From positions 1-64,000 of the forward strand of contig QEVG01000012.1 of assembly GCA_003576905.1 (NCBI GenBank): a DNA stretch of 64,000 bases, read 5' to 3'. Shown in pieces: positions 49,349-64,000 of this stretch; the stretch's first letter is position 1, and each line of letters begins with the position of its first letter. Source of the DNA: Planctomycetota bacterium (GTDB lineage Bacteria; Planctomycetota; Phycisphaerae; UBA1845; UTPLA1). The translations under genes were made by a program, and so were the position numbers. The notes beneath the pieces were generated by a model. That model was given only the letters and a program-made list of their open reading frames with translations, was not told the origin of the DNA and searched no databases.

Positions 49349-49865
49349 GGGTTTTCTCCAGGGGTGGTGGGTGACTCGCGGCGAGCTTTTCAGTCACGCC
49401 ATAGTATAGGACATGCGGCGGACGCCGACGTTTGGCGGACCGCGGTGGGGTCCGAGGGAATAATAGACGAAAACCGGACCTTGTCCCGGTCCCGGCGCTG
49501 GTTCGCACAATTCACAGGGGCTGGCTTGTCCCTCCGACGGCGCGGACGGATCGCGTTGCACTGTTTTCGATCGACATCGACAATCGACCACTGCGTTAAC
49601 TTTATTATGCATAGGGAGTTAATGATCCTTCATCTAACAGGGCGTTGGCTGGCCCTGTAAGCTCTGGGCCGTCGATCATACTGCGACGATCCCCGCGCCG
49701 CGGTGTAAAAGGTGGCGTCATCTGATGTTCCGCGCCCCGGGGGGTGTCGGGCGTCTTGCGGGGGCATCGCGGCCCGGCGGTTCTGCCGGCAGTGTGGGCC
49801 GCATGAATTGCGTTCGTTCGCCTCGCGGATACTGCGTCGCCGCTCGGTCGCGGCGGGTGGGTGCT
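49349..49865. other. Intergenic region upstream of the secretion operon
   Basis: About 517 bases between divergent genes. The stretch 49595-49625 is AT-rich for this window and holds TATTAT (49603-49608), a possible -10 without a good -35. After it comes a tiny frame at 49622-49660 (MILHLTGRWLAL, 12 codons) with GGGAG upstream but only 3 bases of spacing. A perfect 7-base-pair hairpin, ACAGGGC (49637-49643) with GCCCTGT (49652-49658), lies inside it. I see no other gene. Confidence 0.4.
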
Positions 49866-50732
49866 ATGAGCTTGACACCGCGTTTCACGAGATGTGTTCC
49901 TCAAGGTCGATTGCGCTGTCCGCGGGCCGCCCGGCCGGCCGCAGCGCTCCTTGAAGTCGTGATCGCGATTTCGATTCTCCTGGTGGCGATGGCGGTCGTG
50001 GGCGCGACTTTTCAGAACGGCGCGCGAAACGTTGAACTGGCCGAGCGGATGAACCAGGCCGGGGCGTTGACAGATCGGCTTCTCGCGGAACTCGACCTGG
50101 GCCTTCTGACGATGACCGAAGGCGAGGCGAATGGTCCGCCGCAGGAGTTTTCGGGGTATTTCGGTGAGGACGCGCCGCCGGGGCTGGCCTGGAAGGCGGA
50201 AGTCAGCAGGGACCCGAGCCTTCCGGGGATGCTCAAGGTCGGCGTACACATCATTGCCGGCGACCCCGAGGCGACCGACGGCCGGCAGCAGCGAATCCTC
50301 TCCACCTATGTCTGGCGCGCCGAGCCGCGAAACATCAACCTTGAGACGGACTTCGGCTTCTCTCAGGAACAATTGGACATGCTCACCGACGCGATACCCG
50401 GCGGGGCGGCGGTGCTCGACCCGACCAACTTCAACCCGCGCGATATTGCGAGCCTTCCACTCGACCAGTTACAGCAGCTTCTCCCGTTGATCATGCAGGC
50501 CCTTGGCGGCGGCATGATAGGCGGTCAACTTGATTCGCTCCTCCAGGCGGCGCAAAGCGGCGACCTTTCCGGACTTCAGGACCTCGCGCGCCAACTCGGC
50601 CAGCAGGGTGGCGCGGTACCCGGTCTGCCCGGCCTCCCGGACATGGGCGGCAGGCAGCCGGGTCGTGTGGGCGTGCAGCCGCCGGGCGGCCAGCAGGGGC
50701 AGCCCGGACAGCGCGGGGGAGGTCGTAAATGA
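49866..50732 (+). CDS. GspI-like pseudopilin with Gln/Gly/Pro-rich tail
   Basis: A 288-residue minor pseudopilin. The type IV pilin-like N-terminus reads AALLEVVIAISILLVAMAVV, with Glu at +5 after a likely prepilin peptidase site; residue -1 appears to be Ala rather than the usual Gly. The C-terminal 120 residues are low-complexity (Leu/Gln, then Gly/Gln/Pro), unusual for GspI. The ATG at 49866 is chosen because upstream codons read as shadow. First visible gene of the secretion operon, overlapping the next by 4 bases. Confidence 0.8.
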   Translation: MSLTPRFTRCVPQGRLRCPRAARPAAALLEVVIAISILLVAMAVVGATFQNGARNVELAERMNQAGALTDRLLAELDLGLLTMTEGEANGPPQEFSGYFGEDAPPGLAWKAEVSRDPSLPGMLKVGVHIIAGDPEATDGRQQRILSTYVWRAEPRNINLETDFGFSQEQLDMLTDAIPGGAAVLDPTNFNPRDIASLPLDQLQQLLPLIMQALGGGMIGGQLDSLLQAAQSGDLSGLQDLARQLGQQGGAVPGLPGLPDMGGRQPGRVGVQPPGGQQGQPGQRGGGRK

Positions 50733-51670
50733 GATTGCGCGGGCGTCACCAGTATGCGCAGAATCTGCCGGCCCTGTGTGGCGCGGGCGCAGTTTTTGCG
50801 CGTGGCGGCGTCCGCCGGACGGCAAGGAGGCCGCTGACGGCCCGATGGCGAAGGGGCATGACGCTCGTCGAAGTGTTGCTCTCATTGGGGCTGATCATCT
50901 TCGTCACTGCGGTCATGTTCGTTTTCTACGACGTTTCGCTGCGGTCGCGCGACTACGGAACCCGCCGGATCATCGATGGCAATCTGGCCCGCGTCGTCGC
51001 GGAAAGAATCGCCGAGGAAATCCGATCGGCAAATGGGTTCCTTCAGGGCGCCGGACCGGGCATCAACGGCAAGGAGCGGATCATCCGGGTTCAGACCGTC
51101 GTTCTTCCGGACAAGGAGCTATACGTCCGGCGAGCCATTCAGGACGACGCGCCGCCTGCTCAGAGCGATCTGCGGCAGGTTCAGTATTACCTGGCATATA
51201 ACTACGACGCCTCGTTCGAGTACCCGGACGGTACGGTCGGGCCGGCGCCGCTGGGGCTGGTCCGCCGGGAAATCCGCACGCTGAACCAGGTCATGGTGCG
51301 CGACGATCAGCGGGAGTCCGTTGATCTGGATCTCTACGCGCCGGAGATGAAGTACCTCCGATTTCGTTACTTCGACGGCGTGGAATGGCTGGATCGGTGG
51401 GACCTGGGGACCGGGCCGGAGGGTGAGATGGGCAATTCCCTCCCGCAGGCCGTCGAAATAACGGTCGGCTATGACGCGGTCCCGCCTCCCGAAGAGGAGG
51501 AGGAAGACCTCGATCTCGACCAGTCGGAGTTGTTGCCCGCGCCGCCTGAGACGTACTCGGAAAGCAAGTACACGATCGTCGTTCGGCTGCCGCAGGCGGA
51601 TACGTTCTTCGGTTCGCGGCTGCTGCGCGCCCAGCGCCAACCGGCCGGCACGGAAGGGGGACAGCCATGA
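50729..51670 (+). CDS. GspJ-like minor pseudopilin
   Basis: A 313-residue pseudopilin. The prepilin motif is RRGMTLVEVLLSLGLIIF, with Gly at -1 and Glu at +5. The globular domain is GspJ-like (EIRSANGFLQGAG, YLRFRYFDGVEWLDRWDL near the C-terminus). An acidic run (EEEEEDLDLDQSE) occurs near residue 255. The 43-residue leader before the cleavage site is long, so translation may start later. It overlaps GspI-like and GspK-like genes by 4 bases each. Confidence 0.85.
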   Translation: MRLRGRHQYAQNLPALCGAGAVFARGGVRRTARRPLTARWRRGMTLVEVLLSLGLIIFVTAVMFVFYDVSLRSRDYGTRRIIDGNLARVVAERIAEEIRSANGFLQGAGPGINGKERIIRVQTVVLPDKELYVRRAIQDDAPPAQSDLRQVQYYLAYNYDASFEYPDGTVGPAPLGLVRREIRTLNQVMVRDDQRESVDLDLYAPEMKYLRFRYFDGVEWLDRWDLGTGPEGEMGNSLPQAVEITVGYDAVPPPEEEEEDLDLDQSELLPAPPETYSESKYTIVVRLPQADTFFGSRLLRAQRQPAGTEGGQP

Positions 51671-53409
51671 ACCCCTCTTCTCGTTCCGGTTCCGTACTTC
51701 ATTGCAATCGCCGCCCGGTGCTGCGGCTTCGCCGGGCGCGGCGCGGCGGGCTTATCCTGATCGTCGTTCTGGTCATGATCTCGCTATTGTCGCTTCTGGC
51801 GGCGAGTTACGCGTTCATGGTGCAGGCCAACATGCGCGGGGCGATGGCGATTCACCATCGGTTTCAGGCCCAGATGGCCGCGGAGAGTGGTTTTCAGCGG
51901 GCGGTCGCCGTGCTGCGTGAATCGCGCAACGACGCCGGCATCTGGTACAACAATCCGCAGCTCTTCCGGGCGATACTCGTCGAGGGTACCGAAGAGGAAG
52001 CCGAGGCAGACACGCAACAGCAGATTGCCAAGGTCAGCGAGACGGGCTGGTATGATACCAGCGCGAAGCCCGCCTGGCGGTTCAGCCTGTATGCGCGAAA
52101 CAGCGACGACCCCGTCACGGTTCGCTACGGCGTGACCGACGAGACGTCGAAGATTGATCTGAACCGGGTTACCGAGGCGCAGCTCCGACGATTCCTTGAA
52201 TTAACGATCCCGCAGGACACGGCGAACCCCGTCGACATCAACGTCCTCGTGGACTCGCTCCTCGACTGGCGGGAGCCGGGCAACCAGCCGCGGCCCAACG
52301 GAGCGAAGGACGAGTATTACCAGGGCCTGGAGCCGCCGTACCGGAGCAAGAACGCGCCGTTTTCGACGATCGAGGAACTACTCCTGGTTCGGGGGTTCAG
52401 CGCCTGGGTACTCTTCGGCGAGGACTACAACCGCAACGGTCTGCTCGATCCGAATGAGGACGACGCGGATGCTTCGTTTCCTCCGGACAACGGCGACGGA
52501 ATCTTGTACGCAGGAATTGCGCCCTACCTGACACTCTGGTCACGCGAGACAAACATGTCGTCGGACCAGCGGCCGCGCATAAATCTGAACATGCAGGATA
52601 CGCAGAAACTGCAGGAGCTGATTTCCGAGCAGTTCAGCGCCGAGATTGTCAACTATGTCCTTTCGGTTCGCGCGTCGGGCATGGCGTTTAACAGTGTTAT
52701 GAATCTGCTTCCGGCGCCGCCGACGCCCGAGAGCGAGGAAGCGCCGCCCGAGGACGGACTGCCGCCCGATTTACAGCCGCCTCCGGATGACAGCACGACG
52801 ACACAACCCACGACGAATCCGGCGGATGGATTCGACGCCGGTTTGCAGGACGGTTCGACCGATCTTAGTCAGTCTGAAAGTGCGTCCGAGAAAAGCCAGA
52901 CGGCGAAGCCGCCTGAATTCAAGGACCTGACGCAGGAAGTTCCGCCGGGCACGTACGAGGATCTGCCGTTGATTCTCGACCGGCTCACGACGGACCCCGT
53001 GCCGCTGTACGTGGGCCGGCTGAATATCAGCACGGCCGCGCGGGAGGCGCTGGCGTCCATCGAGCAACTGACGGACGCGGAGATCGACGCGATCGTGGCC
53101 GCGCGCGTGGACCTGTCGCCGGAGGAGCGCCGGACGCCCGCGTGGCTTGTGGCGCGCGGCGTGCTGACCGAGCACAAGTTCCGCTGGATCCTGCCGCGGC
53201 TGGCGCTGGGCAGCTCGGTGTTTCAGGTGGAGTGCGTGGGATACGCGGATCACGTGGGCGTGATGGATCGGATGAACGTGGTCTTCGAGATGCGGGGACC
53301 GATCCCGCAGGTGCTGTACAAGCGGCGGCTCAACAATCTCGGGACGGCCTACATGCCGCACGGCGAGGAGATCCGCGCCGCGCAGCAGCAGGCGCCGGTG
53401 AATCGGTAG
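51667..53409 (+). CDS. GspK-like minor pseudopilin
   Basis: A 580-residue GspK-type pseudopilin that would cap the pseudopilus tip. The N-terminus has RRARRGGLILIVVLVMISLL without a +5 Glu, as is normal for GspK. The body includes GVTDETSKIDLNRVTEAQLR and helix-hairpin-helix-like segments (LNISTAAREALASIEQLTDA). An 80-residue Pro/Thr/Ser/Glu-rich insertion (about 355-430) is unusual. It overlaps GspJ-like and precedes the GspL-like gene by 49 bases. Confidence 0.88.
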   Translation: MNPSSRSGSVLHCNRRPVLRLRRARRGGLILIVVLVMISLLSLLAASYAFMVQANMRGAMAIHHRFQAQMAAESGFQRAVAVLRESRNDAGIWYNNPQLFRAILVEGTEEEAEADTQQQIAKVSETGWYDTSAKPAWRFSLYARNSDDPVTVRYGVTDETSKIDLNRVTEAQLRRFLELTIPQDTANPVDINVLVDSLLDWREPGNQPRPNGAKDEYYQGLEPPYRSKNAPFSTIEELLLVRGFSAWVLFGEDYNRNGLLDPNEDDADASFPPDNGDGILYAGIAPYLTLWSRETNMSSDQRPRINLNMQDTQKLQELISEQFSAEIVNYVLSVRASGMAFNSVMNLLPAPPTPESEEAPPEDGLPPDLQPPPDDSTTTQPTTNPADGFDAGLQDGSTDLSQSESASEKSQTAKPPEFKDLTQEVPPGTYEDLPLILDRLTTDPVPLYVGRLNISTAAREALASIEQLTDAEIDAIVAARVDLSPEERRTPAWLVARGVLTEHKFRWILPRLALGSSVFQVECVGYADHVGVMDRMNVVFEMRGPIPQVLYKRRLNNLGTAYMPHGEEIRAAQQQAPVNR

Positions 53410-53458: not shown

Positions 53459-55399
53459 ATGGCCCTGGGCGCGAAACAGGTTTTGTCGCTCGACTGGAAC
53501 CGCAGGGAACTGCGCATGGTCCTCGTGCGCCCGCGGTCCGACGGCGTCGATCTGCTCAAGGCCGTGTGCCTGCCCATCCCCGCCGAGGTGCGGGTCGAGG
53601 AGCCGCCCGCCTTCGGCGCGTTCATCCGCGAGTCGATGAAGCAGGCCCGGATTTCGATCAGGAAAGTCATCCTCTGCGTGCCGCGTGACCAGGTCGTGCT
53701 GAACACGCTGAACGTTCCGCCGACACCGTCCGAGGAAATACCCGCGATCGTGCAGTTCCAGGTGGTCAAGGAACTCCCGTTCTCGGCCGATCAGGCCACG
53801 CTCGATTTCGCGGTGTGCGGTGCGTACGACCCCAAGGCCCCGAGCAGTGTGCTCGTCGCCGCCGTGCGCAACGAGGACCTGGCCTACTACGGCCGCGTCG
53901 CCGAGGCCGCCGGACTTTCGATTGAGTCGATCGGGCTTCGGCCCTATTCGAACATCGTCGCGGTCATGGGCAACGCGCCCGACCTGGCCCAGCGAAACGT
54001 CCTGGTCGTCGAGGTCGGCCCGCAGCTCACCGAGATCGACATCATCAAGAAAGGCGTCCTTGCCTTTTCGCGCAGCGCGTCGGTGGCGCTGGCCGAGTTC
54101 GGCGGCGGCGATGCCGAGGAGTACCGGGACAGCCGCATCACCGGTCCCAACGTCGCCAACCGCGAGCCTGACGAATGGTCAGGCCAGGCCATCTCCAACA
54201 TGATGGTCGAGATCATCCGATCGCACGAAGCGTACCGCGCGACCGATCCCGGCTTCTCGCTCGACCACATCGTCGTGTGCGGATCGTCGGGACTCGAGGT
54301 GCAGCTCGCGCATTCGCTCGCGGCGCGCTTTGCGACGAAGGCCGATCTGTATATTCCCGACAAGGCCCTCGGCCTCTCGGCCCAGCGGGCACGCGAGTTG
54401 CGCGGGTTTTCCGCCGCCATCGGCCTGGCGATGGATCACGGCCGAAAAGGGCTCGCCCACTTCGACTTCCTCCATCCGAAGAAGCCGATCAGCAAGCGGC
54501 AGCTCCGGCTGCGGAAGCTTCCGGTCGCGGCGGCGACCATCGTGCTCTTTCTCGGTTCCGCAGTTACGTTCTACACCAAGTTCGTCTCTCCTCAGCTTGA
54601 AGCCGTCGAAAAGCTTCGCGACGAAGTGGCGCTGAAGAAGAAAGACGAAAAGAAGATCAAGGATTTCAAGAGCCGCGTTGAGACCCTCGACGCATGGATT
54701 GAATCCGATCACGTCTGGCCCGAGGTGCTCGTCGCGCTGACCGAAGTCTTTCCCGACCAGAAGGAGGCTTACGTTACGCGGCTCGACTTCGAGACGCGCA
54801 ACCGGGGCCGGGGCGGCGGGCGCGAAAGCGTCGCCCGGCTGAAGTTCCGCACCGTTTCGCTCGGTGCCGTCAACGAACTGGCCAACCGCCTGCGCGAGGC
54901 CGGTTTCCGAAACGTCGTGCCCGGACGCGAAACGTCGTCTGGCACAAAGGACGCCTACACGAAAGACACGGGCATCGACATGGAGGTTCCCGAGCGCGAA
55001 GTCCTGATGGCCTCGCGTGAAGCGCGCTTCCTCGAAGAGGAGGAGGATGCCGCGGAGCCTGTTTCGCCGGAATCGCCGCCGCCGGTCGAGCCATCGAACG
55101 CGAAGCCCGTCGAGCGAGGCCCGAAGAACGAATCGCGCCCGGCCGGATCCGATCCTGCAAACGGCGCGGCGCCTTCCGAGGAGAAGCCCGCGTCCCCCGC
55201 GGCTTCAGGTCCGAAAGCGCCGCACCCTTCGAACATCGGTTCCGCTGCGAATGCGCGGCCCGGCTCCGGCCGTGAAGCCGGCGCCGGCGGGCCGCCCGCC
55301 GCAGGGCCCGCCAAGGGACCGGTACGGTCCGCACCGGGTCGGCCTGATGGCCGCAAGGCCGTAAGCGCCCCGAAGCCCGGGCCGGGAGGGGGCGCATGA
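53459..55399 (+). CDS. GspL-like protein (PilM-PilN-type fusion) with Pro/Ala/Glu-rich tail
   Basis: A 646-residue inner-membrane platform component. Residues 1-340 are an actin-like PilM/GspL cytoplasmic domain (LSLDWNRRELRMVLV, then NVLVVEVGPQLTEIDII and HIVVCGSSGLEVQLAHSL). One membrane helix is at about 353-373. A coiled coil (LEAVEKLRDEVALKKKDEKK) and a small PilN-like periplasmic domain follow. The last 120 residues are low-complexity Pro/Ala/Gly/Glu. It overlaps the next gene by 4 bases. Confidence 0.85.
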   Translation: MALGAKQVLSLDWNRRELRMVLVRPRSDGVDLLKAVCLPIPAEVRVEEPPAFGAFIRESMKQARISIRKVILCVPRDQVVLNTLNVPPTPSEEIPAIVQFQVVKELPFSADQATLDFAVCGAYDPKAPSSVLVAAVRNEDLAYYGRVAEAAGLSIESIGLRPYSNIVAVMGNAPDLAQRNVLVVEVGPQLTEIDIIKKGVLAFSRSASVALAEFGGGDAEEYRDSRITGPNVANREPDEWSGQAISNMMVEIIRSHEAYRATDPGFSLDHIVVCGSSGLEVQLAHSLAARFATKADLYIPDKALGLSAQRARELRGFSAAIGLAMDHGRKGLAHFDFLHPKKPISKRQLRLRKLPVAAATIVLFLGSAVTFYTKFVSPQLEAVEKLRDEVALKKKDEKKIKDFKSRVETLDAWIESDHVWPEVLVALTEVFPDQKEAYVTRLDFETRNRGRGGGRESVARLKFRTVSLGAVNELANRLREAGFRNVVPGRETSSGTKDAYTKDTGIDMEVPEREVLMASREARFLEEEEDAAEPVSPESPPPVEPSNAKPVERGPKNESRPAGSDPANGAAPSEEKPASPAASGPKAPHPSNIGSAANARPGSGREAGAGGPPAAGPAKGPVRSAPGRPDGRKAVSAPKPGPGGGA

Positions 55400-56973
55400 A
55401 CAAGCGCGAACGCACGTTGGCGATCATCGTCGGAGGCGCGATTGGGCTGACGGTCCTCTATCAGGCCGTCAACTTCATCTTTATCGCACCGGTGCGCCAG
55501 GCGAAGACGGATCTGGCCGACCTGGAGCGGGATCGCAACATGCTCGACGGCCTGATTCGCAGCCGGCGCAACCTCGCCCAGCGCTGGCTTGATTACTCTG
55601 CGAAGACGATTTCGTTTAACCGGCCGGAGGTGACGAACCGCTTCGCGCAGGACCTGAAGGACCTCGCCGAGAAGCACGGCTTCGCCAATCCGACGTTTAC
55701 GCCGACCTCGGGAACGAAGATCGGCGCGAAGACGGAAATCTCCACCGCGGGATACCGCATCGCCGTGGAAGGCAGATACCCGAAGGTGCTCTTGTTCCTT
55801 CGAGATATCTACAAACTGCCCTATCTCACGGCAATCACGAAGATCAGCATCGCGCCCGTACTTATTCGCGGCCGCGCTCCGGACGAGGTGAAGACCGAGT
55901 TCACCATCGAAACGCCCATATTGCCGCAGATAGACAAGAAGATTTTCGAGGAAGTGGTCAACGCGACCACCATGCCGGCGGACGTTCTGGCGTCGGGCCC
56001 GCCGGCCCGCGAATGGGTTCGGCACGATGGAGAGGCCTACGGCCTGCTCGACCGGCGGAACATCTTCAAGCCCTACACACCGCCCCCCCAGAACGTCGTA
56101 ATGGTCATCAACGACGACTGGAAGACCGTGGGGGCAAGAGTGCATTTTTACTGGGAAGGGGAAGTCCAGACGACCAAAGTCGACACAATTCCCAGCAAAG
56201 GACAGCTATCATTTACCGGCCCCGGCGACGTCATTGAAATCGAGGGTTCGTACGCCGACGGAAAGACGTTCGGTCCCCAAAAGCTCGACTTCTCTTCGAA
56301 AAAGGACTGGACATACACCATTCCGGCGCATCATCCGCCGCCTCCGCCCGACTTCGTCCTGCTTGCGGTGGACAACAAGGACAAGAACCCCGTCGATTTC
56401 GACGTGATGCTGACGTTGAAGGACGGCCAGTCGCGAACGTACCCGACGATGCGCGCACCGCCCGGCAAGGTCACCGACGTGCCGGAGTTTGAGGTGAAAT
56501 CGCTGACGATCACCGCGACCTATTCGTCCGGAAAGAAGACGGCCCCGGCGACCTTTCAGCCCACGAAAGAAAAGCAGTTATTCGTCGTTCCGCCGGAGCC
56601 CGTCGAAACCGTCGCCCAGGCGGCTCAGCCCGTCAGCGACCCGCCGGCCGATCCGCAGTATACGGTTTCAGGCCTGGTGACCTACCGGGGGAACCACGAA
56701 ATGATCGCCACGGCCGCCGGCAATAAGCGGGTGGTGATCGCGGCGGGCCAGCCCGCCTCGGTGGATGGCGGCGTCCTTCTGGGTGTTCATCCGCTGGGCG
56801 GCGTCGTGAAGATGCCGAGCGGCAGTTTCTATCTGTACCCGTTGGGGAAGAAGTTTACGGATCGTGTTCGGCTGGAGGCCAGGGTGGAGGAAGAACTGCC
56901 GCAGGCGATCGACGCCTGGGCCTATGCCACCAAGACTCCGTCCGAGGACGGCGAGCCGGTAGGCAGCCAGTAG
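55396..56973 (+). CDS. GspM/PilO-like platform protein with long periplasmic extension
   Basis: A 525-residue protein. One membrane helix is near the N-terminus (LAIIVGGAIGLTVLYQAVNF), followed by a coiled coil (QAKTDLADLERDRNMLDGLI) and a ferredoxin-like PilO/GspM domain to about residue 190. The remaining 330 residues include beta-rich segments (GDVIEIEGSYADGKTFG) and a Thr/Pro-rich part, and are not found in ordinary GspM. The C-terminal region resembles PilP-like lipoprotein domains (YTVSGLVTYRGNHEMIATAA), which bind the secretin in pilus systems (inference). Confidence 0.78.
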   Translation: MNKRERTLAIIVGGAIGLTVLYQAVNFIFIAPVRQAKTDLADLERDRNMLDGLIRSRRNLAQRWLDYSAKTISFNRPEVTNRFAQDLKDLAEKHGFANPTFTPTSGTKIGAKTEISTAGYRIAVEGRYPKVLLFLRDIYKLPYLTAITKISIAPVLIRGRAPDEVKTEFTIETPILPQIDKKIFEEVVNATTMPADVLASGPPAREWVRHDGEAYGLLDRRNIFKPYTPPPQNVVMVINDDWKTVGARVHFYWEGEVQTTKVDTIPSKGQLSFTGPGDVIEIEGSYADGKTFGPQKLDFSSKKDWTYTIPAHHPPPPPDFVLLAVDNKDKNPVDFDVMLTLKDGQSRTYPTMRAPPGKVTDVPEFEVKSLTITATYSSGKKTAPATFQPTKEKQLFVVPPEPVETVAQAAQPVSDPPADPQYTVSGLVTYRGNHEMIATAAGNKRVVIAAGQPASVDGGVLLGVHPLGGVVKMPSGSFYLYPLGKKFTDRVRLEARVEEELPQAIDAWAYATKTPSEDGEPVGSQ

Positions 56974-57058: not shown

Positions 57059-60000
57059 ATGAACAGGCAACCACACTCGCTCACGGGATACGCGGCCATC
57101 CGCGCCGTTTCTCTGCTCGCGACGCTTGGACTGGGAACGCTCTCCCTCCGCCCTGCCCTTGTTTGTGCCCAGAGCGAACCGGCCGCGACCCAGCCCGCAT
57201 CCACGCCCGACAGCCTGGAGAAGGCCCGCCGCGCCGCCCTCGAGTCCATCGCGAAGCAGAAAGCCGCCGCCACCAGCCAGCCCGCGGCGCAGCTGCCGGC
57301 CATGCCCCCTCCGGTCACGCCGCCGGTCAAGGCGCCGCCCACCGAAAAGCCCACGACCGCGCCCCAATCGACGCCCCCCGTAAAGCCCGGTCCGGCCGCG
57401 CCGCCGCCGGCCAAGACACCGCCGGATGCCGCTGGAACGGCACCTATGCAGCCGGCCGCCCCGAAGGAGCCGGTCAAGGGCGAGTTCACGACGCTGAGTT
57501 TCACGGTCTCGCCGCCGAGCCCCGAGGACCGGAGCTATCGGTTTGATTATGAGAACGCGCCGTGGGCCGACGTGCTCAACGATTTCTCGCGCATGAGCGG
57601 ACTGGCCTTTCTCAATCCGCCCGATCCGCCCATCACCGACAATCTCACCTTCCGCAGTCCGAAGGACATGACCTATCGGGAGGCCCTGGCCCAGTTGAAC
57701 GACCTGCTGGTCAATCGTCCGCTGAACAAGTATCTGATCCGGCAGCAGGACACCTTCCTCGTCATCAAGCGCCTGCCCGACTGGATGCGCGAGATCGAGC
57801 CGAGCCAGATGTTCGACTCCTTCGAGGAGATGGAGGCCTCCGACCCCGACGACTACGACATCGTCCTTGTGAACATGGAGGTTCCCGAGGGCTGGTCGCC
57901 GTACGAGATCATCGAGAAGTACCGCCCGCTCTTCACCGACACCTACGGCACGCAGGTCAACGGCAACCGCCTCGAACTGACCGGCATGGTCTGGGAGCAT
58001 CGCCGGTTCCGAAACGTCGTGTTCAAACTGGTGGACATGACCGACGGGCCGCCGCCCTCCGATCCGCGGCCCATGCTGCGCATCGAGCTGAAGAACGCCC
58101 GCGCCGCCGACGTCCAGACGATGCTGCGCCAGCTCTATCCGCTGACGGCGCCCGCGCCCGCGGCTGGACGAGGCCCCGGCGTCGACCAGACAGCCGAACT
58201 GGCCAAGAAAGTCGACATCCTCTCCGACGTCAAGAACAACATCATCATCGTCAAGGCCCCGCCGCGCATGCTCAGCGAGATCGCGGAGATGACGGCGAAG
58301 CTCGACACCGGAACGGGCCTCACCATGCCGGTCATGAAAGTCGTCAAGCTCGAATTCGCCGACCCGAACACCCTCGCCGGCACGCTCAAGCCCATCTTCA
58401 TGAAAGAGCAGCAGGCCATCATGAAGCCGGACGGCCCCTACGTTTCGGCCGAGCAGAAGGCCGACATGGAGCGCGATATCTTCCCCGACCCGGCGAGTAA
58501 CTCGGTGATCATCATCGGCGGAAAGTCCGGCGTCGAGGACGCCGAGCGCCTGGTTCGCCAATGGGACACGCCGGGCGAGAATACCATCGACGAGATCATC
58601 GAACTCAAGCACGCCGACGCTTCGGACATCGCCGGGATTCTCGCGCAGATCTTCCCCGCTGCGCCCAAGCCGGGTCAGACGGGCGATAAGTTCACGCCGC
58701 GCACGAGCACGTCGCTCCTCGTGTCCGTCTCGAAGCGGACCTACGAGAAGATGAAGGCCCTCATCGCGAAGCTGGACGTGCCCGGCGAGGATGAAGAGCA
58801 GGAGCACATTGTCCAGCCGAAGGCGATTCCCCCCAGCGCCCTCGCCGCCGTCCTGCAGCAGGCCATGAGCGGCGGCGGGCCGGGCGCTCCGCGCATTGCG
58901 GCGCCGAAGCGACCGGGCCAGCAGCCGCCGGCCCCGCCCGCCTCACCCTCCGGCGCCGGTCCGCGCTTCATCCCGGACGACGGAACGGGCTATTTGATTG
59001 TTTACGCGGTTGCGGAAGACTGGGACCGGATCGAGCCGCTGATCAAGAAGCTCGATGACAAGGCCGAGACCTATCAGCCGCGGCTGGCTGTCTTTGCTCT
59101 GGCACGCGCCAATGCGACCGACGTCGTGAACATGCTCCAGCAGATGTTCCCGGCCCAGCCGCCGGCCGCCGGCGCGCCCGCGCCGCAGCAGGTCAGCTTC
59201 TTCGCCGATCTCTACAACAACGCGGTGCAGGTTTTCGCGTCGAACGAGTTCATCGCCAAGATCACGCCATTCATCACGCAGCTCGACATCGAGGCGACCG
59301 CGCCGCTCACCGTCATCAAGCTCCAGCATGCCGACGCCGAGACGATCGCGCCGATCCTCGCCCAGACCGTCGGCGGAACCGCCGTCTCCTCCGCGCCGCA
59401 GATTCGCCCGCAGCCGGGCAAACCGGGACAGCCGCCGCAGCAGCCGGCGCAGACCGTCGCCCCGACCGGGGGCTCGACGCGGATCGTCGCCGAGCCGATC
59501 ACGAACTCGCTGCTCGTCTCCGCGCCGCCCAAGGACATGGAGCAGATTCGCAAGCTGGTTGACGAGATCGAGGCGGAGGCCTCCGAACAGAAGGCCAAGA
59601 CGGAGGCGACGCGCGTGATCATGACGGCGAGTCACCGGCCCGCCGAAGAACTCGTCGAGACGCTGAAGTATCTCGCCGCGCCGCCGAAGCAGCTTCCCGG
59701 CGGGCCGCGCGCCGTCGTCGCCAATCAGGAAGTCGCCGCCGCCGAGGCCGAAGGGCTCAAGATTGTCGCAAGCGGCCAGCAGGTCATCATCGACGGCCCG
59801 CGTGACCAGGTCGCCAAGGCCATTCAGCTTTTCGAGCAGATCGACGTTCCGCGCGAAGGCATGATATTCCGCAAGTACGCGGTGAACGACGCGGAAAAGG
59901 ACGTCGTCAAGCTGCGCGAGATGCTCGCCCAGAGCCAGCCGCCGACGGTGCAGACCGGCACCGCGCCGGGCGGCAAGGGCGGGCCTGCGGCGCGCCCGGC

Positions 60001-63000
60001 GCCGGCGCCCAAGCCGTCCGCGCCGGAGTCGATCCTGATTCACTCCGACTCGGAGGACAACACGATCCTCGTCGGCGCGCGGCTGGAGTCGGACCTGAAG
60101 CAGGTCGAGGACATCCTCCAACTGATCTTCCGTGAACCGGTCGCGCTCGAAGGCGGACCGGAAGGCAGCACCGACGGCCTGCCGTTCTTCATGGTCAAAC
60201 TCCAGTATCGCAAGGCGTTCGACATCGCCTTCGACGTGGAGGACATCCTCAATCCGGACAGCAAGGACAACGGCCTGCGCTTCGACGAAGGCCCGACCGA
60301 GAAGCTGCTGATGGTCCGCAACTGCCGGCCGGGTCAGCGCGAGCGCGTGGAGGAAGTCATCAAGGTCTTTGACGTGCCGGAGAGCGGCATCACGCGCGAA
60401 GGATTCCGCATGCTGGATTCAGAGAAGATGCCGCCGGAGATGCTCGTGCGGCTCCTCCAGCAGCAGTACAACAAGCCGATCAGCATGATTCCCCTGAGCG
60501 ACGCGGCGGGGCGCGTCAAAGTCATCGACATTCACGCCGACGAGGAACCGGCCGCGCCGGTCGAGCGGACGCGCTCCGGCGACATCAACCCATGCGTCCT
60601 GCCCGCGACCATGCTTGTGTCGCTCGCGTCGCTCCCGATCGGTCAGGCCCGGGCCAACGAGTCGGCGGAACTTCTCGAACCCGCCGTCTGCCCGATCTGC
60701 CATCAGAGCCCGTGCAGCCTTCCGACGCAGCTTCTTCGGTCGCTTGATGCCATCGCGATGGCCCACTCCGACGACGGGCTGGAGCCGGAGGATGAATCGC
60801 AGGCTCCCAGGACCGGCACGCGCGAATTCTCCGCAAAGGAACCGAAAGTCGTTCAGCCGGCCGGGGAAGTCGCAGCGGGCGATAACCAGCCGGAGGCGAA
60901 GTCGCGGGACGAAGGCGTCAGCTTCCTCTACGATGCCGAGTCCGGCAAGATCATCCTGAAGGGGCCCGAAGAGGAACTCGAGATCATCGAGGAGCTCATT
61001 GACGAAATCACCAGCGAGGATCAGCCCACCGTCTTTCGTGTTTTCCCGCTGAAGTACGCCGATGTCAGCGTCGCCGCGCAGCTTCTCGAACAGGTGTTCA
61101 ACCAGGGCCAGGCCGTCGCCGCCTCCGGCCGGCGCGGCCGCCAACAGCAACAGCCGCAGATGCCCGTGCCGATGCCCCAGCAGCAGGGCGGCCAGCCCGG
61201 GCAGCCCGGCAAGCCTGGCCAGCCGAACCAGGCCCAACAGCAGCAGATGATGATGCAGCAGCAGATGGCGGCGCAGCAGGGCCCGACGCGCGTGAAGGTC
61301 GTTCCCGACCCGCGCACGAAGAGCCTCTTCGTCGCGGCGGTGCTGTCCGATGTGCCGCTGATTATCGAGGTACTGAAGAAAATCGACGCCCCGGTGGACG
61401 CGCTCGAAAAAACGATCAAGATCTTCAACCTCGAGAACCTCGACGCGACGCAGGTCGTCGTCAATCTGCGCGAAGTGCTCGGGGTCCAGCCGCCGGCCTC
61501 GGCGCAGGGGCCGCAGCAGCGCGGCGGCCGGGGCTTCCCACAGCAGGGCGGCCAGCCCCAGGAACAGCAGATTGTCCAGATGCAGGGCCAGCAGGGGCAA
61601 TCGGTGACGCTTTCCTCCACCGAGAGCATCGAACTGACCGCCGACGCCCAGACGAATTCGATCATCGCAAAGGCGCCGCCGGACACGCTCGCGCTGATCG
61701 AGGATCTGATCGAGCAGCTTGAGGCCAGAACCAACACGACCAAGGCGGAGATGCGCCGCGTTCCGCTGGTGCATGCCCGGGCCACCGACGTCGCCACCAT
61801 CGTCAAGGAAGTCGCCACGCAGGTCGTTGGCGCGGGCGGCGGCGGGGGCGGCCGGTTCAGCCGCCGCTTTGGCGGCGGCGCGCCGGGTGGCGGGGGCGGC
61901 GGCGGTTCGACTGGACAGGTGTCGGTGAACGCCGATGCCAGGACGAACAGCGTGATCCTCGCCGGCGCGACGAAGGACGTGGAGCGCGTGGCGCAGATCG
62001 TGAAGGAGATGGATATCCCGAGCGACGGCGGCGCGATTCAGCAGTTCACCGTGAAGGGCGATGCATCGGCGATCGCCGCGACGCTCAAGTCGCTCTATGT
62101 GACCGGCAATGCCACCGACGTAATCATCACCGGCGATAACTCGACAGGTGTCGTCGTGGTAAAGGCCCCGCCGAACCTGATGAAGGAGATCGGCGACCAG
62201 CTCCAGGCGATGGATGACAAGGTGGCCGGCACCAAGGAGATCAAGACGATCAAGCTGGTCCTGGCCGACCCCGAACAGGTCGCCATGCGTCTACAGGAAA
62301 TCTTCACGGCGACGCGCGGCGCCGGCGGCGCGCGCCAGACCATTACGATCAAAGGCAACAAGAACAACAGCACCCTGTACGTGATGGGCGCGGACGAGGA
62401 GACCTTTGAGCAGATTCAGGGCGTCGCTACCGGAATGGACATGCAGCCCTCCGGCATCCAGGTGAAGCGGTTCCCCCTTCAGCACGCAAACGCGACAGAG
62501 ATCAACACCCAGCTGACCGACATGCTTGTTAAGGCCAAGGCGAGCGGCGGGCTGGAGGGCGTCAAGCTTGACTTCGTCGGGGCCGTGCCTGACCCGCGCA
62601 CGAATTCGCTGATCGTCACGGGCGGGCCGATCACCTTCCTTCTGATCGGTGACGTGCTCAAGGAAGTGGACGTCCAGCCGTCGAACGAGATCGCCCGCGA
62701 CACGCGCTCCTATCAACTGCCGATGTCCGTCGACATCAACCAGATGGCCGCGAACATCCAGGCGGCCTTCGCTTCGTCGCCCGGCGCGAAGACGGGGCTC
62801 GAGCCTCCGACCGTCACGCCCAATGCGGCGAGCAACATGCTGATCGTCACGGCCAACGGACGCCAGCACGAGGAGATCAAGACGAAGATCATCGATCCGG
62901 TGGTCGCCGCCGTGGGGTCGGAGTTCGCAGACTATCGCGTCCCGCTGAAGTTCATCCGGGCCGAGGACGCCAAGGCGACGCTCGAGGACTTCATGGTCAA

Positions 63001-64000
63001 GTGGCAGCAGAGCCGCGGCGGCAAGCCCCAGGACCGCTTTGCGATCACCGCCGACCAGAACAGCAACTTGCTGCTCGTCAACTGCACGCCGGCCACGAAG
63101 GAGTTCATCGACAAGCAGCTCGTCGAGATCGACGTGCCGACCGGCAAGCGCGAGACGCGCTTCGTCACGCTCAAGTACGCGCGGGCCGACGAAGTGGCCC
63201 GAGCGATGGCGACGTCGTTCCAGGGCAAGACCGTCCCGAACAGCAAGGGCCAGTGGCCGGTCACCGCCGTGCCCGACGTGACGTCGAACACGGTGATCGT
63301 CACGGCCATGAGCGACCTGTGGCCCGAGGTGGATGCCATGGTTGCGGCCCTCGACGTGGCCGGCGACAGCACGCGCGCCGAGACGACGGTCGAACTCGTC
63401 AACACGCGCCCGGCGGACGTGGCTCAGAGCCTGCAGCAGGTCTTCAACGCCGCCATCGCCGGCAAGCCCGGCCGCACCGCGCCGACGATCACCGCCGTGC
63501 CGGGCACGACCCGGCTCGTGGTCTTTGCGACGGAAAGCGAACTCGCCCAGATCCGAAATCTCGTGACGCAGATCGACGAGGAAGGCTCGAAGGGGCGGAT
63601 GGTCCACACCGTCACCATGCCTGAACTCGTGCCCGCCAAAACGGTCGCCGAGGCGATCAAGCAGCTCTTCGGCACGAACCAGCCCGACGGCATCAAGGCC
63701 GAGTATCACGAACCGACGAACACACTCCTCGTCAGCGCGACCGAGCGGGAATTCGCGCGGATCAAGGAACAGGTGATCGACAAGATTTCCACCCAGCCGA
63801 CCATCGGCACGATGAAGCCCTTCCGCATTCCGCTGAAGTACGCCGTCGCGGACGAAGTGGCCAAGACGCTACAGGAGTTCTTCGACAAGAAGGCCGGGTT
63901 GAAGAGCAACCAGAGCAACCTGCCGCCGTGGATGCGCGGCAACGAGCCGGCCAAGCAGATTGAAAACCAGGTCTCCATCGTCGCCGAGCCGACCAGCAAC
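57059..64000 (+). CDS. Giant secretin-family protein with about 21-22 tandem secretin_N-like modules (3' end outside window)
   Basis: An open frame of at least 2,314 codons with no stop before the window edge. The ATG has GGAGG 7 bases upstream and opens a signal peptide (AIRAVSLLATLGLGTLSL, cleavage near VCAQ). A Pro/Ala-rich linker is followed by an N0/STN-like domain at about 157-240 (YENAPWADVLNDFSRMSGLA). From about residue 385 on come modules of about 90 residues, each with a helix such as LKHADASDIAGILAQIF and a closing strand-helix like DPRTNSLIVTGGPITFLLIG; I count 21 plus one cut by the edge. Linkers are rich in Gln/Gly/Pro. No secretin pore domain is visible yet. It ends the GspI-J-K-L-M-like operon, so it likely forms or extends the outer-membrane channel. 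Confidence 0.88.
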   Translation, partial: MNRQPHSLTGYAAIRAVSLLATLGLGTLSLRPALVCAQSEPAATQPASTPDSLEKARRAALESIAKQKAAATSQPAAQLPAMPPPVTPPVKAPPTEKPTTAPQSTPPVKPGPAAPPPAKTPPDAAGTAPMQPAAPKEPVKGEFTTLSFTVSPPSPEDRSYRFDYENAPWADVLNDFSRMSGLAFLNPPDPPITDNLTFRSPKDMTYREALAQLNDLLVNRPLNKYLIRQQDTFLVIKRLPDWMREIEPSQMFDSFEEMEASDPDDYDIVLVNMEVPEGWSPYEIIEKYRPLFTDTYGTQVNGNRLELTGMVWEHRRFRNVVFKLVDMTDGPPPSDPRPMLRIELKNARAADVQTMLRQLYPLTAPAPAAGRGPGVDQTAELAKKVDILSDVKNNIIIVKAPPRMLSEIAEMTAKLDTGTGLTMPVMKVVKLEFADPNTLAGTLKPIFMKEQQAIMKPDGPYVSAEQKADMERDIFPDPASNSVIIIGGKSGVEDAERLVRQWDTPGENTIDEIIELKHADASDIAGILAQIFPAAPKPGQTGDKFTPRTSTSLLVSVSKRTYEKMKALIAKLDVPGEDEEQEHIVQPKAIPPSALAAVLQQAMSGGGPGAPRIAAPKRPGQQPPAPPASPSGAGPRFIPDDGTGYLIVYAVAEDWDRIEPLIKKLDDKAETYQPRLAVFALARANATDVVNMLQQMFPAQPPAAGAPAPQQVSFFADLYNNAVQVFASNEFIAKITPFITQLDIEATAPLTVIKLQHADAETIAPILAQTVGGTAVSSAPQIRPQPGKPGQPPQQPAQTVAPTGGSTRIVAEPITNSLLVSAPPKDMEQIRKLVDEIEAEASEQKAKTEATRVIMTASHRPAEELVETLKYLAAPPKQLPGGPRAVVANQEVAAAEAEGLKIVASGQQVIIDGPRDQVAKAIQLFEQIDVPREGMIFRKYAVNDAEKDVVKLREMLAQSQPPTVQTGTAPGGKGGPAARPAPAPKPSAPESILIHSDSEDNTILVGARLESDLKQVEDILQLIFREPVALEGGPEGSTDGLPFFMVKLQYRKAFDIAFDVEDILNPDSKDNGLRFDEGPTEKLLMVRNCRPGQRERVEEVIKVFDVPESGITREGFRMLDSEKMPPEMLVRLLQQQYNKPISMIPLSDAAGRVKVIDIHADEEPAAPVERTRSGDINPCVLPATMLVSLASLPIGQARANESAELLEPAVCPICHQSPCSLPTQLLRSLDAIAMAHSDDGLEPEDESQAPRTGTREFSAKEPKVVQPAGEVAAGDNQPEAKSRDEGVSFLYDAESGKIILKGPEEELEIIEELIDEITSEDQPTVFRVFPLKYADVSVAAQLLEQVFNQGQAVAASGRRGRQQQQPQMPVPMPQQQGGQPGQPGKPGQPNQAQQQQMMMQQQMAAQQGPTRVKVVPDPRTKSLFVAAVLSDVPLIIEVLKKIDAPVDALEKTIKIFNLENLDATQVVVNLREVLGVQPPASAQGPQQRGGRGFPQQGGQPQEQQIVQMQGQQGQSVTLSSTESIELTADAQTNSIIAKAPPDTLALIEDLIEQLEARTNTTKAEMRRVPLVHARATDVATIVKEVATQVVGAGGGGGGRFSRRFGGGAPGGGGGGGSTGQVSVNADARTNSVILAGATKDVERVAQIVKEMDIPSDGGAIQQFTVKGDASAIAATLKSLYVTGNATDVIITGDNSTGVVVVKAPPNLMKEIGDQLQAMDDKVAGTKEIKTIKLVLADPEQVAMRLQEIFTATRGAGGARQTITIKGNKNNSTLYVMGADEETFEQIQGVATGMDMQPSGIQVKRFPLQHANATEINTQLTDMLVKAKASGGLEGVKLDFVGAVPDPRTNSLIVTGGPITFLLIGDVLKEVDVQPSNEIARDTRSYQLPMSVDINQMAANIQAAFASSPGAKTGLEPPTVTPNAASNMLIVTANGRQHEEIKTKIIDPVVAAVGSEFADYRVPLKFIRAEDAKATLEDFMVKWQQSRGGKPQDRFAITADQNSNLLLVNCTPATKEFIDKQLVEIDVPTGKRETRFVTLKYARADEVARAMATSFQGKTVPNSKGQWPVTAVPDVTSNTVIVTAMSDLWPEVDAMVAALDVAGDSTRAETTVELVNTRPADVAQSLQQVFNAAIAGKPGRTAPTITAVPGTTRLVVFATESELAQIRNLVTQIDEEGSKGRMVHTVTMPELVPAKTVAEAIKQLFGTNQPDGIKAEYHEPTNTLLVSATEREFARIKEQVIDKISTQPTIGTMKPFRIPLKYAVADEVAKTLQEFFDKKAGLKSNQSNLPPWMRGNEPAKQIENQVSIVAEPTSN

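Follow-up and report, generated by a model that had tools for sequence, protein, structure and literature searches.

The window, the 64,000-nucleotide stretch analysed here (bases 1-64000 of a contig that measures 95,457 bp; the genome is 4.7 Mb in 65 contigs), ends inside a type II secretion system (T2SS) gene cluster of the order gspI-J-K-L-M-D, read on the forward strand. The first two genes encode minor pseudopilins, one gspI-like (49725..50732, +), with a weak match only, and one gspJ-like (50729..51670, +), with the pilin-type N-terminus GMTLVEVLLS and a weak Pfam match below cut-off. They are followed by gspK (51667..53409, +), a minor pseudopilin matched by PF21687 and weakly by NF037980; by a gspL/pilM-like gene (53459..55399, +; PF11104, 61 bits); and by a gene for a gspM/PilO-like inner-membrane protein (55396..56973, +), which has no Pfam match and occupies the same place beside the giant gene in relatives. 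The last gsp cistron is that giant, a gspD whose codons 1-2314 of 4469 fill positions 57059..64000 (+) and which continues outside the window.

The initial annotation had reported a 2,314-codon open frame at this position, a claim that held, and had stated that it would be refuted by a stop codon or frameshift splitting the gene, or by HMM searches finding fewer than about 8 modules. Neither stop nor frameshift was found on extension past the window: the frame is open from the edge to contig base 70,468, and the full locus (L006:1059-14468) encodes 4,469 aa with a mass of 483 kDa. The module count, given below, is likewise far above 8. The same genome contains four further secretin matches, whose open frames measure 616-1,066 aa, so the giant is a special secretin of this organism and not its sole one.

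A frame of this size could, in principle, be an assembly or sequencing artefact in which ordinary genes have been run together. In favor of this reading, the assembly is in 65 contigs, and ordinary secretins measure only 600-900 aa. Against it, an orthologous frame of 4,261-5,207 aa was found in 15 of the 17 genomes searched of the window's own family, f1 (the window's genome included), and three of the 14 others, G003, G014 and G015, are single-contig assemblies. Moreover, dN/dS between close pairs is 0.085-0.09 over about 4,500-4,900 codons, and the gene is under purifying selection. The two exceptions in the family, frames of 1,184 and 1,952 aa, come from the fragmented assemblies G012 and G005, where contig ends presumably cut the gene. 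We therefore rejected the artefact, which the long frames in 14 other genomes and the dN/dS of about 0.09 all but exclude.

The order gspI-J-K-L-M-D-lipoprotein is maintained in relatives, a predicted lipoprotein gene following the giant here and following the last secretin gene in the split families described below. In the single-contig genomes G142 and G015, gspF and gspG are found 20-24 kb upstream, on the strand of the cluster; in the window's genome they are on a separate contig (C50). No GspE gene was found close to the cluster in any genome checked. As separate observations, five T2SSE/PilB-like ATPase matches stand in a row on one strand elsewhere in the window's genome (C54:638-8829), and G003 has a comparable cluster (C1:631865-636051); a gene for a VKOR-DsbA fusion occurs two genes downstream of the giant (L006:15373-16659); and a downstream open frame of 1,440 aa (L007:6-4325) has no Pfam match.

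Domain content and relation to GspD

The protein begins with an N-terminal signal peptide, assigned by eye as MNRQPHSLTGYAAIRAVSLLATLGLGTLSLRPALVCA with the cut placed before QSE (57059..57175, +). An N0 domain follows at aa 151-245 (57509..57793, +). It was placed with a profile of 32 family members, which matches the N0 of GspD and PilQ in the PDB (E 4e-5), and with the GspD N0 model PF21305, which matches 18 of the 32 members (best E 1.3e-11); the window's own copy is below the Pfam threshold. The N0-like domain of the initial annotation thus held, through matches at the level of the family.

Searches with the two secretin models, which the initial annotation had recommended, gave Secretin_N (PF03958) at 1,036 bits in 32 stretches, each separately significant, and a single Secretin pore (PF00263) at aa 4161-4326, at 169 bits against a cut-off of 27.5. 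A module HMM built from the giant protein itself gave 40 matches, 21 of them fully within the window, where about 21 repeats had been claimed. Among the 40, one module is divided by a Q-rich insert and two are the second halves of interrupted modules. Allowing for the former and for one or two divergent modules that were missed, the giant consists of about 40 modules plus N0. Within the window the modules fall into two segments. Segment A holds eight modules detected by this HMM (aa 341-1023; 58079..60127, +), and segment B (60824..64000, +) opens with the second half of an interrupted module (aa 1256-1318) and continues with modules past the edge to about aa 2626. In many cases the loop between α1 and β2 of a module is long and has a high content of G, Q, P or A, as at aa 1371-1408, 1478-1530 and 1590-1620; such loops, in segment B (60824-64000) and in L006, are also the type of site where the gene splits described below occur.

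Although the modules are only about 22% alike among themselves, their best matches are collinear between relatives (38 of 40 in L021, 36 in L018 and 34 of 40 in the distant L036), which indicates that the array is old and that its order has been kept. For the same reasons we rejected a recent repeat expansion in the window's gene. Recent duplications do occur elsewhere, in L157 and L036, where modules are 85-87% alike. In L157 several modules that are 70-87% alike are regularly spaced, which points to a recent in-register block duplication.

By fold, sequence and neighborhood, the giant is a variant of the T2SS secretin GspD. The whole protein scores 1,018 bits against the GspD model TIGR02517 (NCBIfam; cut-off 351), although this score is inflated by the repeats, and the PilQ and SctC models are passed too. 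The module profile matches GspD N-domains in the PDB (5wq7, E 2.5e-27). An AlphaFold2 model of the C-terminal 955 aa shows β-α-β-β-α modules in series and then a pore domain with long strands. The last modules and the pore follow the order of GspD N1-N3 and pore, and the model matches Vibrio cholerae GspD (9k8v: Z 13.0, 261 residues, rmsd 7.4) and also 5w68 in fold. Its confidence is moderate (mean pLDDT 66, pTM 0.36). The initial annotation had suggested a structure prediction to see whether the modules stack into a tube; the single-chain model shows modules and pore, and stacking into rings remains inference. With 4,469 aa and about 40 modules, against the 600-900 aa and N0-N3 that are usual, the protein is a variant GspD and not an ordinary member.

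Two readings had been offered at first, a secretin with a very long periplasmic stalk and a filament or scaffold protein reusing N-modules; no pore was reached before the window edge. That absence held within the window. The pore found beyond it, the TIGR02517 match and the T2SS cluster support the secretin; the filament or scaffold reading has lost its main support, and we rejected a version of it without a pore because PF00263 matches past the edge.

Distribution and split genes

A pore-alignment search over 396 genomes of the class Phycisphaerae found giant versions of 2,400-6,169 aa, with up to 61 modules, in at least 12 families, single-contig genomes included. Frames reach 4.0-5.2 kaa in f1 and f4, 4.6-5.1 kaa in f9, 4.2-4.8 kaa in f15 and 2.4-3.9 kaa in f89; the largest relative, L157 (f90, G331 contig 18), has 6,169 aa and 61 modules. 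In the rest of the phylum the frames of the best matches in the pore search reach 1,341 aa, and a few Gemmata-type proteins have about 2,000-2,300 aa with 8-9 modules. Frames of at least 3,628 aa, each with about 40 modules, are also present on two contigs (L068, L069) from metagenome-assembled genomes titled Verrucomicrobia and Akkermansia muciniphila. Both stand beside the Phycisphaerae family f12 in the tree, so that either mislabeling or transfer of the gene may be involved. In one further frame, the secretin of G022 (L038:8638-14340), the start by eye resembles the RNA polymerase beta subunit, and the pore is preceded by only three modules; it is probably a chimeric assembly.

In sister families the giant is divided among genes. 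In f2 (L047, L048), three genes in tandem take its place in the operon: A carries N0 and about 6-7 modules, B about 7-13 modules, and C 12-14 modules together with the pore. In f5, f6 and f8 there are two genes, A+B of 2,627-3,089 aa (several of these lengths being lower bounds, as the sequence analyzed ended within the gene) and C of 1,435-1,908 aa from stop to stop. Genes B and C have their own signal peptides by eye, for example MRRIIILSGWLVWLPIIAFA, cut before QE, in B of L047.

Alignment of split genes, fused giants and continuous giants places both gene boundaries within a module: the upstream protein ends with the half-module β1-α1, and the downstream protein begins with β2-β3-α2. In the outgroups f88, f89, f90 and f12 the module at the B/C site is intact. 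In the window's gene the first half of the interrupted module at the A/B site lies at about aa 1118-1145 (60410..60493, +), as judged by alignment to the separate A proteins of f2. The linker of junction 1, the A/B gene boundary in f2, separates it from segment B (about aa 1146-1255; 60494..60823, +). At the B/C site, an AlphaFold2 model of aa 2440-3000 (mean pLDDT 70, pTM 0.31, moderate confidence) shows β1-α1 at residues 162-189 and β2-β3-α2 at residues 377-408, joined by a linker whose pLDDT is for the most part under 50. The two halves superpose over 64 residues on one domain of InvG (4g08 residues 108-173), with an rmsd of 2.4. Together with the two modules after it, the split module matches GspD N1-N2-N3 (5zdh: Z 10.8, 190 residues, rmsd 5.9). 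Because the boundaries fall inside modules, we infer that A, B and C should meet end to end, with half-modules completing each joint.

How the divided forms arose is less clear. The tree sets the fused f1 among the split families with weak node support (84/80), and continuous giants occur outside the order. Either one split, undone in f1 by refusion, or a number of splits remains possible.

Signal-peptide-like segments at the junctions

Both junctions of the fused protein hold segments that resemble signal peptides. The linker of junction 1 contains the segment PCVLPAxLLxSLxxxxxGQ and a CxxCxxxxC motif. Members of a subclade have a near-duplicate pair at this place (60593-60715; about aa 1179-1219), namely (S/N)PCVLPAxLLxSL... 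and SPCxLPxxLLxSLDAV..., flanking a CPICHQSPC motif that could be a disulfide or metal site. At junction 2, where the window's protein reads IMMQVALSGAMAQSSASQPATRP, a hydrophobic run followed by [AG]-x-[AG]-Q occupies one alignment column in 15 of 15 f1 members, in a linker that is otherwise hypervariable in length and sequence across f1. After the half-module of B, most family members also have an R-G/S-D-A-x-W-T-x-x-R-R motif (L006:8946-9002; about aa 2630-2648). A scan for a charge-free hydrophobic 14-mer followed by small-x-small, run over about 68,700 residues from the 15 members, gave matches at junction 2 in 14 of these members, at the true N-terminus in 10 and at junction 1 in 6, and at only five places elsewhere.

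Several explanations of these segments can be considered. First, junction 2 could mark an internal translation start for segment C; this is unsupported, as the f1 alignment has no conserved internal start codon there, ribosome-binding sites having been judged only by eye. Second, the giant could be a precursor whose internal segments are cut by signal peptidase, after which A, B and C would rejoin through their half-modules. The final shaft would be the same as in our main explanation below, and the mature protein would be three chains. In favor of this reading are the charge-free run with its invariant motif at junction 2, the near-confinement of scan matches to expected sites, the coincidence of these positions with the A/B/C boundaries of f2 and the B/C boundary of f5 and f8, where real signal peptides stand, and the lack of a conserved start codon that would explain the segment otherwise. 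Against it, internal signal peptides that are cut in bacterial polyproteins have no precedent in the literature searched; the junction segments are only moderately hydrophobic (mean 1.5-1.9 Kyte-Doolittle); in the window's own copy no basic residue stands shortly before the hydrophobic run; the fused f4 retains hydrophobic segments with a degenerate cleavage motif; and the segment at junction 1 shows partial duplication in a subclade and may be another kind of element. On balance, we lean slightly against the precursor, and cleavage is an untested hypothesis. Third, the retained segments could instead be decaying relics, a possibility that we do not exclude. In the boldest form of the second explanation, an envelope polyprotein of about 480 kDa, with internal signal peptides set within two of its ring modules, would be exported, cut by signal peptidase into three and rebuilt as a shaft of about 100 nm by half-module pairing, with sister families encoding the same three snap-fit segments as separate genes; taken together, we regard this claim as possible but less likely than not.

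A proposed stacked shaft, its rivals and known secretins

As our main explanation, we consider it likely that the giant is a T2SS secretin with one very long shaft of stacked N-rings; stacking, length, location and transport are inferred from the structures of the family. In this view, about 12-15 copies would oligomerize through the pore, as solved secretins do (13 protomers in Thermus thermophilus PilQ (PMC5745081) and 15 in T2SS secretins (PMC10550240)). Each module position would form one ring in a stack of about 40, and at about 2.5-4 nm per ring the hollow shaft would be about 100-160 nm long. The pseudopilus (GspG with I/J/K) would push cargo through it from the inner membrane to the surface. 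Where the gene is split, the terminal half-module of one protein would pair with the initial half-module of the next, giving the same shaft end to end. Such a shaft would perhaps bridge an enlarged planctomycete periplasm. An enlarged periplasm has been shown for Planctopirus (PMC5394234), and we found no periplasm measurement for the class Phycisphaerae in the literature searched; the suggestion in the initial annotation that the stalk spans a wide periplasm is still inference. A link to the crateriform structures of Planctomycetia (PMC5394234) was set aside because these are not reported in described Phycisphaeraceae (PMC8882080).

Several points count against this explanation. A rigid shaft of about 100 nm exceeds the usual Gram-negative periplasm. 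It also exceeds the T. thermophilus PilQ complex, with six rings and 350 Å (PMC5745081). The long G/Q/P-rich loops of many modules need not stack neatly. Finally, GspE is missing from the cluster, and GspF and GspG are elsewhere in the window's genome. In a rival reading there would be no stack of about 40 rings, and the modules would instead surround an ordinary short channel as a looser lattice or a brush, or one ring would be filled by several modules of a single chain. For this reading, 40 rings are far beyond any solved, six having been called unusual (PMC5745081), and low-complexity loops are long in many modules. Against it, the pore and last modules match GspD N1-N3 and pore in order; module order is conserved; half-modules divided between proteins imply defined end-to-end contacts; and module number shifts by in-register duplication, for example in L157 and L036, as a stack predicts. 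We therefore consider the rival unlikely and retain the stacked shaft.

Should the stack hold, a family of 30-60 modules found across the class would mean an envelope machine several times the length of a six-ring secretin. Planctomycete envelope spacing would become directly testable, since the shaft would be expected to lengthen with module number from one species to another. The split modules, and the signal-peptide-like segments that have been retained, provide a natural experiment on the cutting and rejoining of a long homo-oligomeric tube, and giant secretins are a potential source of tunable long protein nanopores.

The size and gene architecture of the giant are outside anything described in the open-access literature searched, in which we found no description of giant or split secretins in planctomycetes; the longest characterized secretin there, with six rings, was already counted among the largest (PMC5745081). 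Several known systems nevertheless share features with it. First, the GspD secretins GspD, PulD, EpsD and XcpQ (5wq7, 5wq8, 5zdh, 6hcg) have the same N0, Secretin_N and pore, with sequence and fold matches, and like them the giant is the last gene after I-J-K-L-M-type genes. The giant differs in having about 40 modules instead of N1-N3 and 4,469 aa instead of about 650, and in a family with variants split or fused through modules and with internal signal-peptide-like segments. Second, T. thermophilus PilQ has extra N-rings, which its authors read as spanning a wide periplasm (PMC5745081), but its six rings and 350 Å serve a type IV pilus, whereas the giant's modules belong to a T2SS operon. 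Third, DotD of the Legionella Dot/Icm T4BSS (PMC2951367) places a secretin N-domain on a separate protein that works with the outer-membrane DotH; it differs from the split giants in being one N0-like domain on a lipoprotein, without tandem modules or half-modules. Finally, the enlarged secretins of Planctomycetia, namely L094 of an uncultured Gemmata (2,321 aa, about 8 modules) and L080 of a member of the Gemmataceae (1,968 aa, about 9), share the phylum and the domain types of the giant, but have fewer modules, and their length consists largely of linkers and loops.
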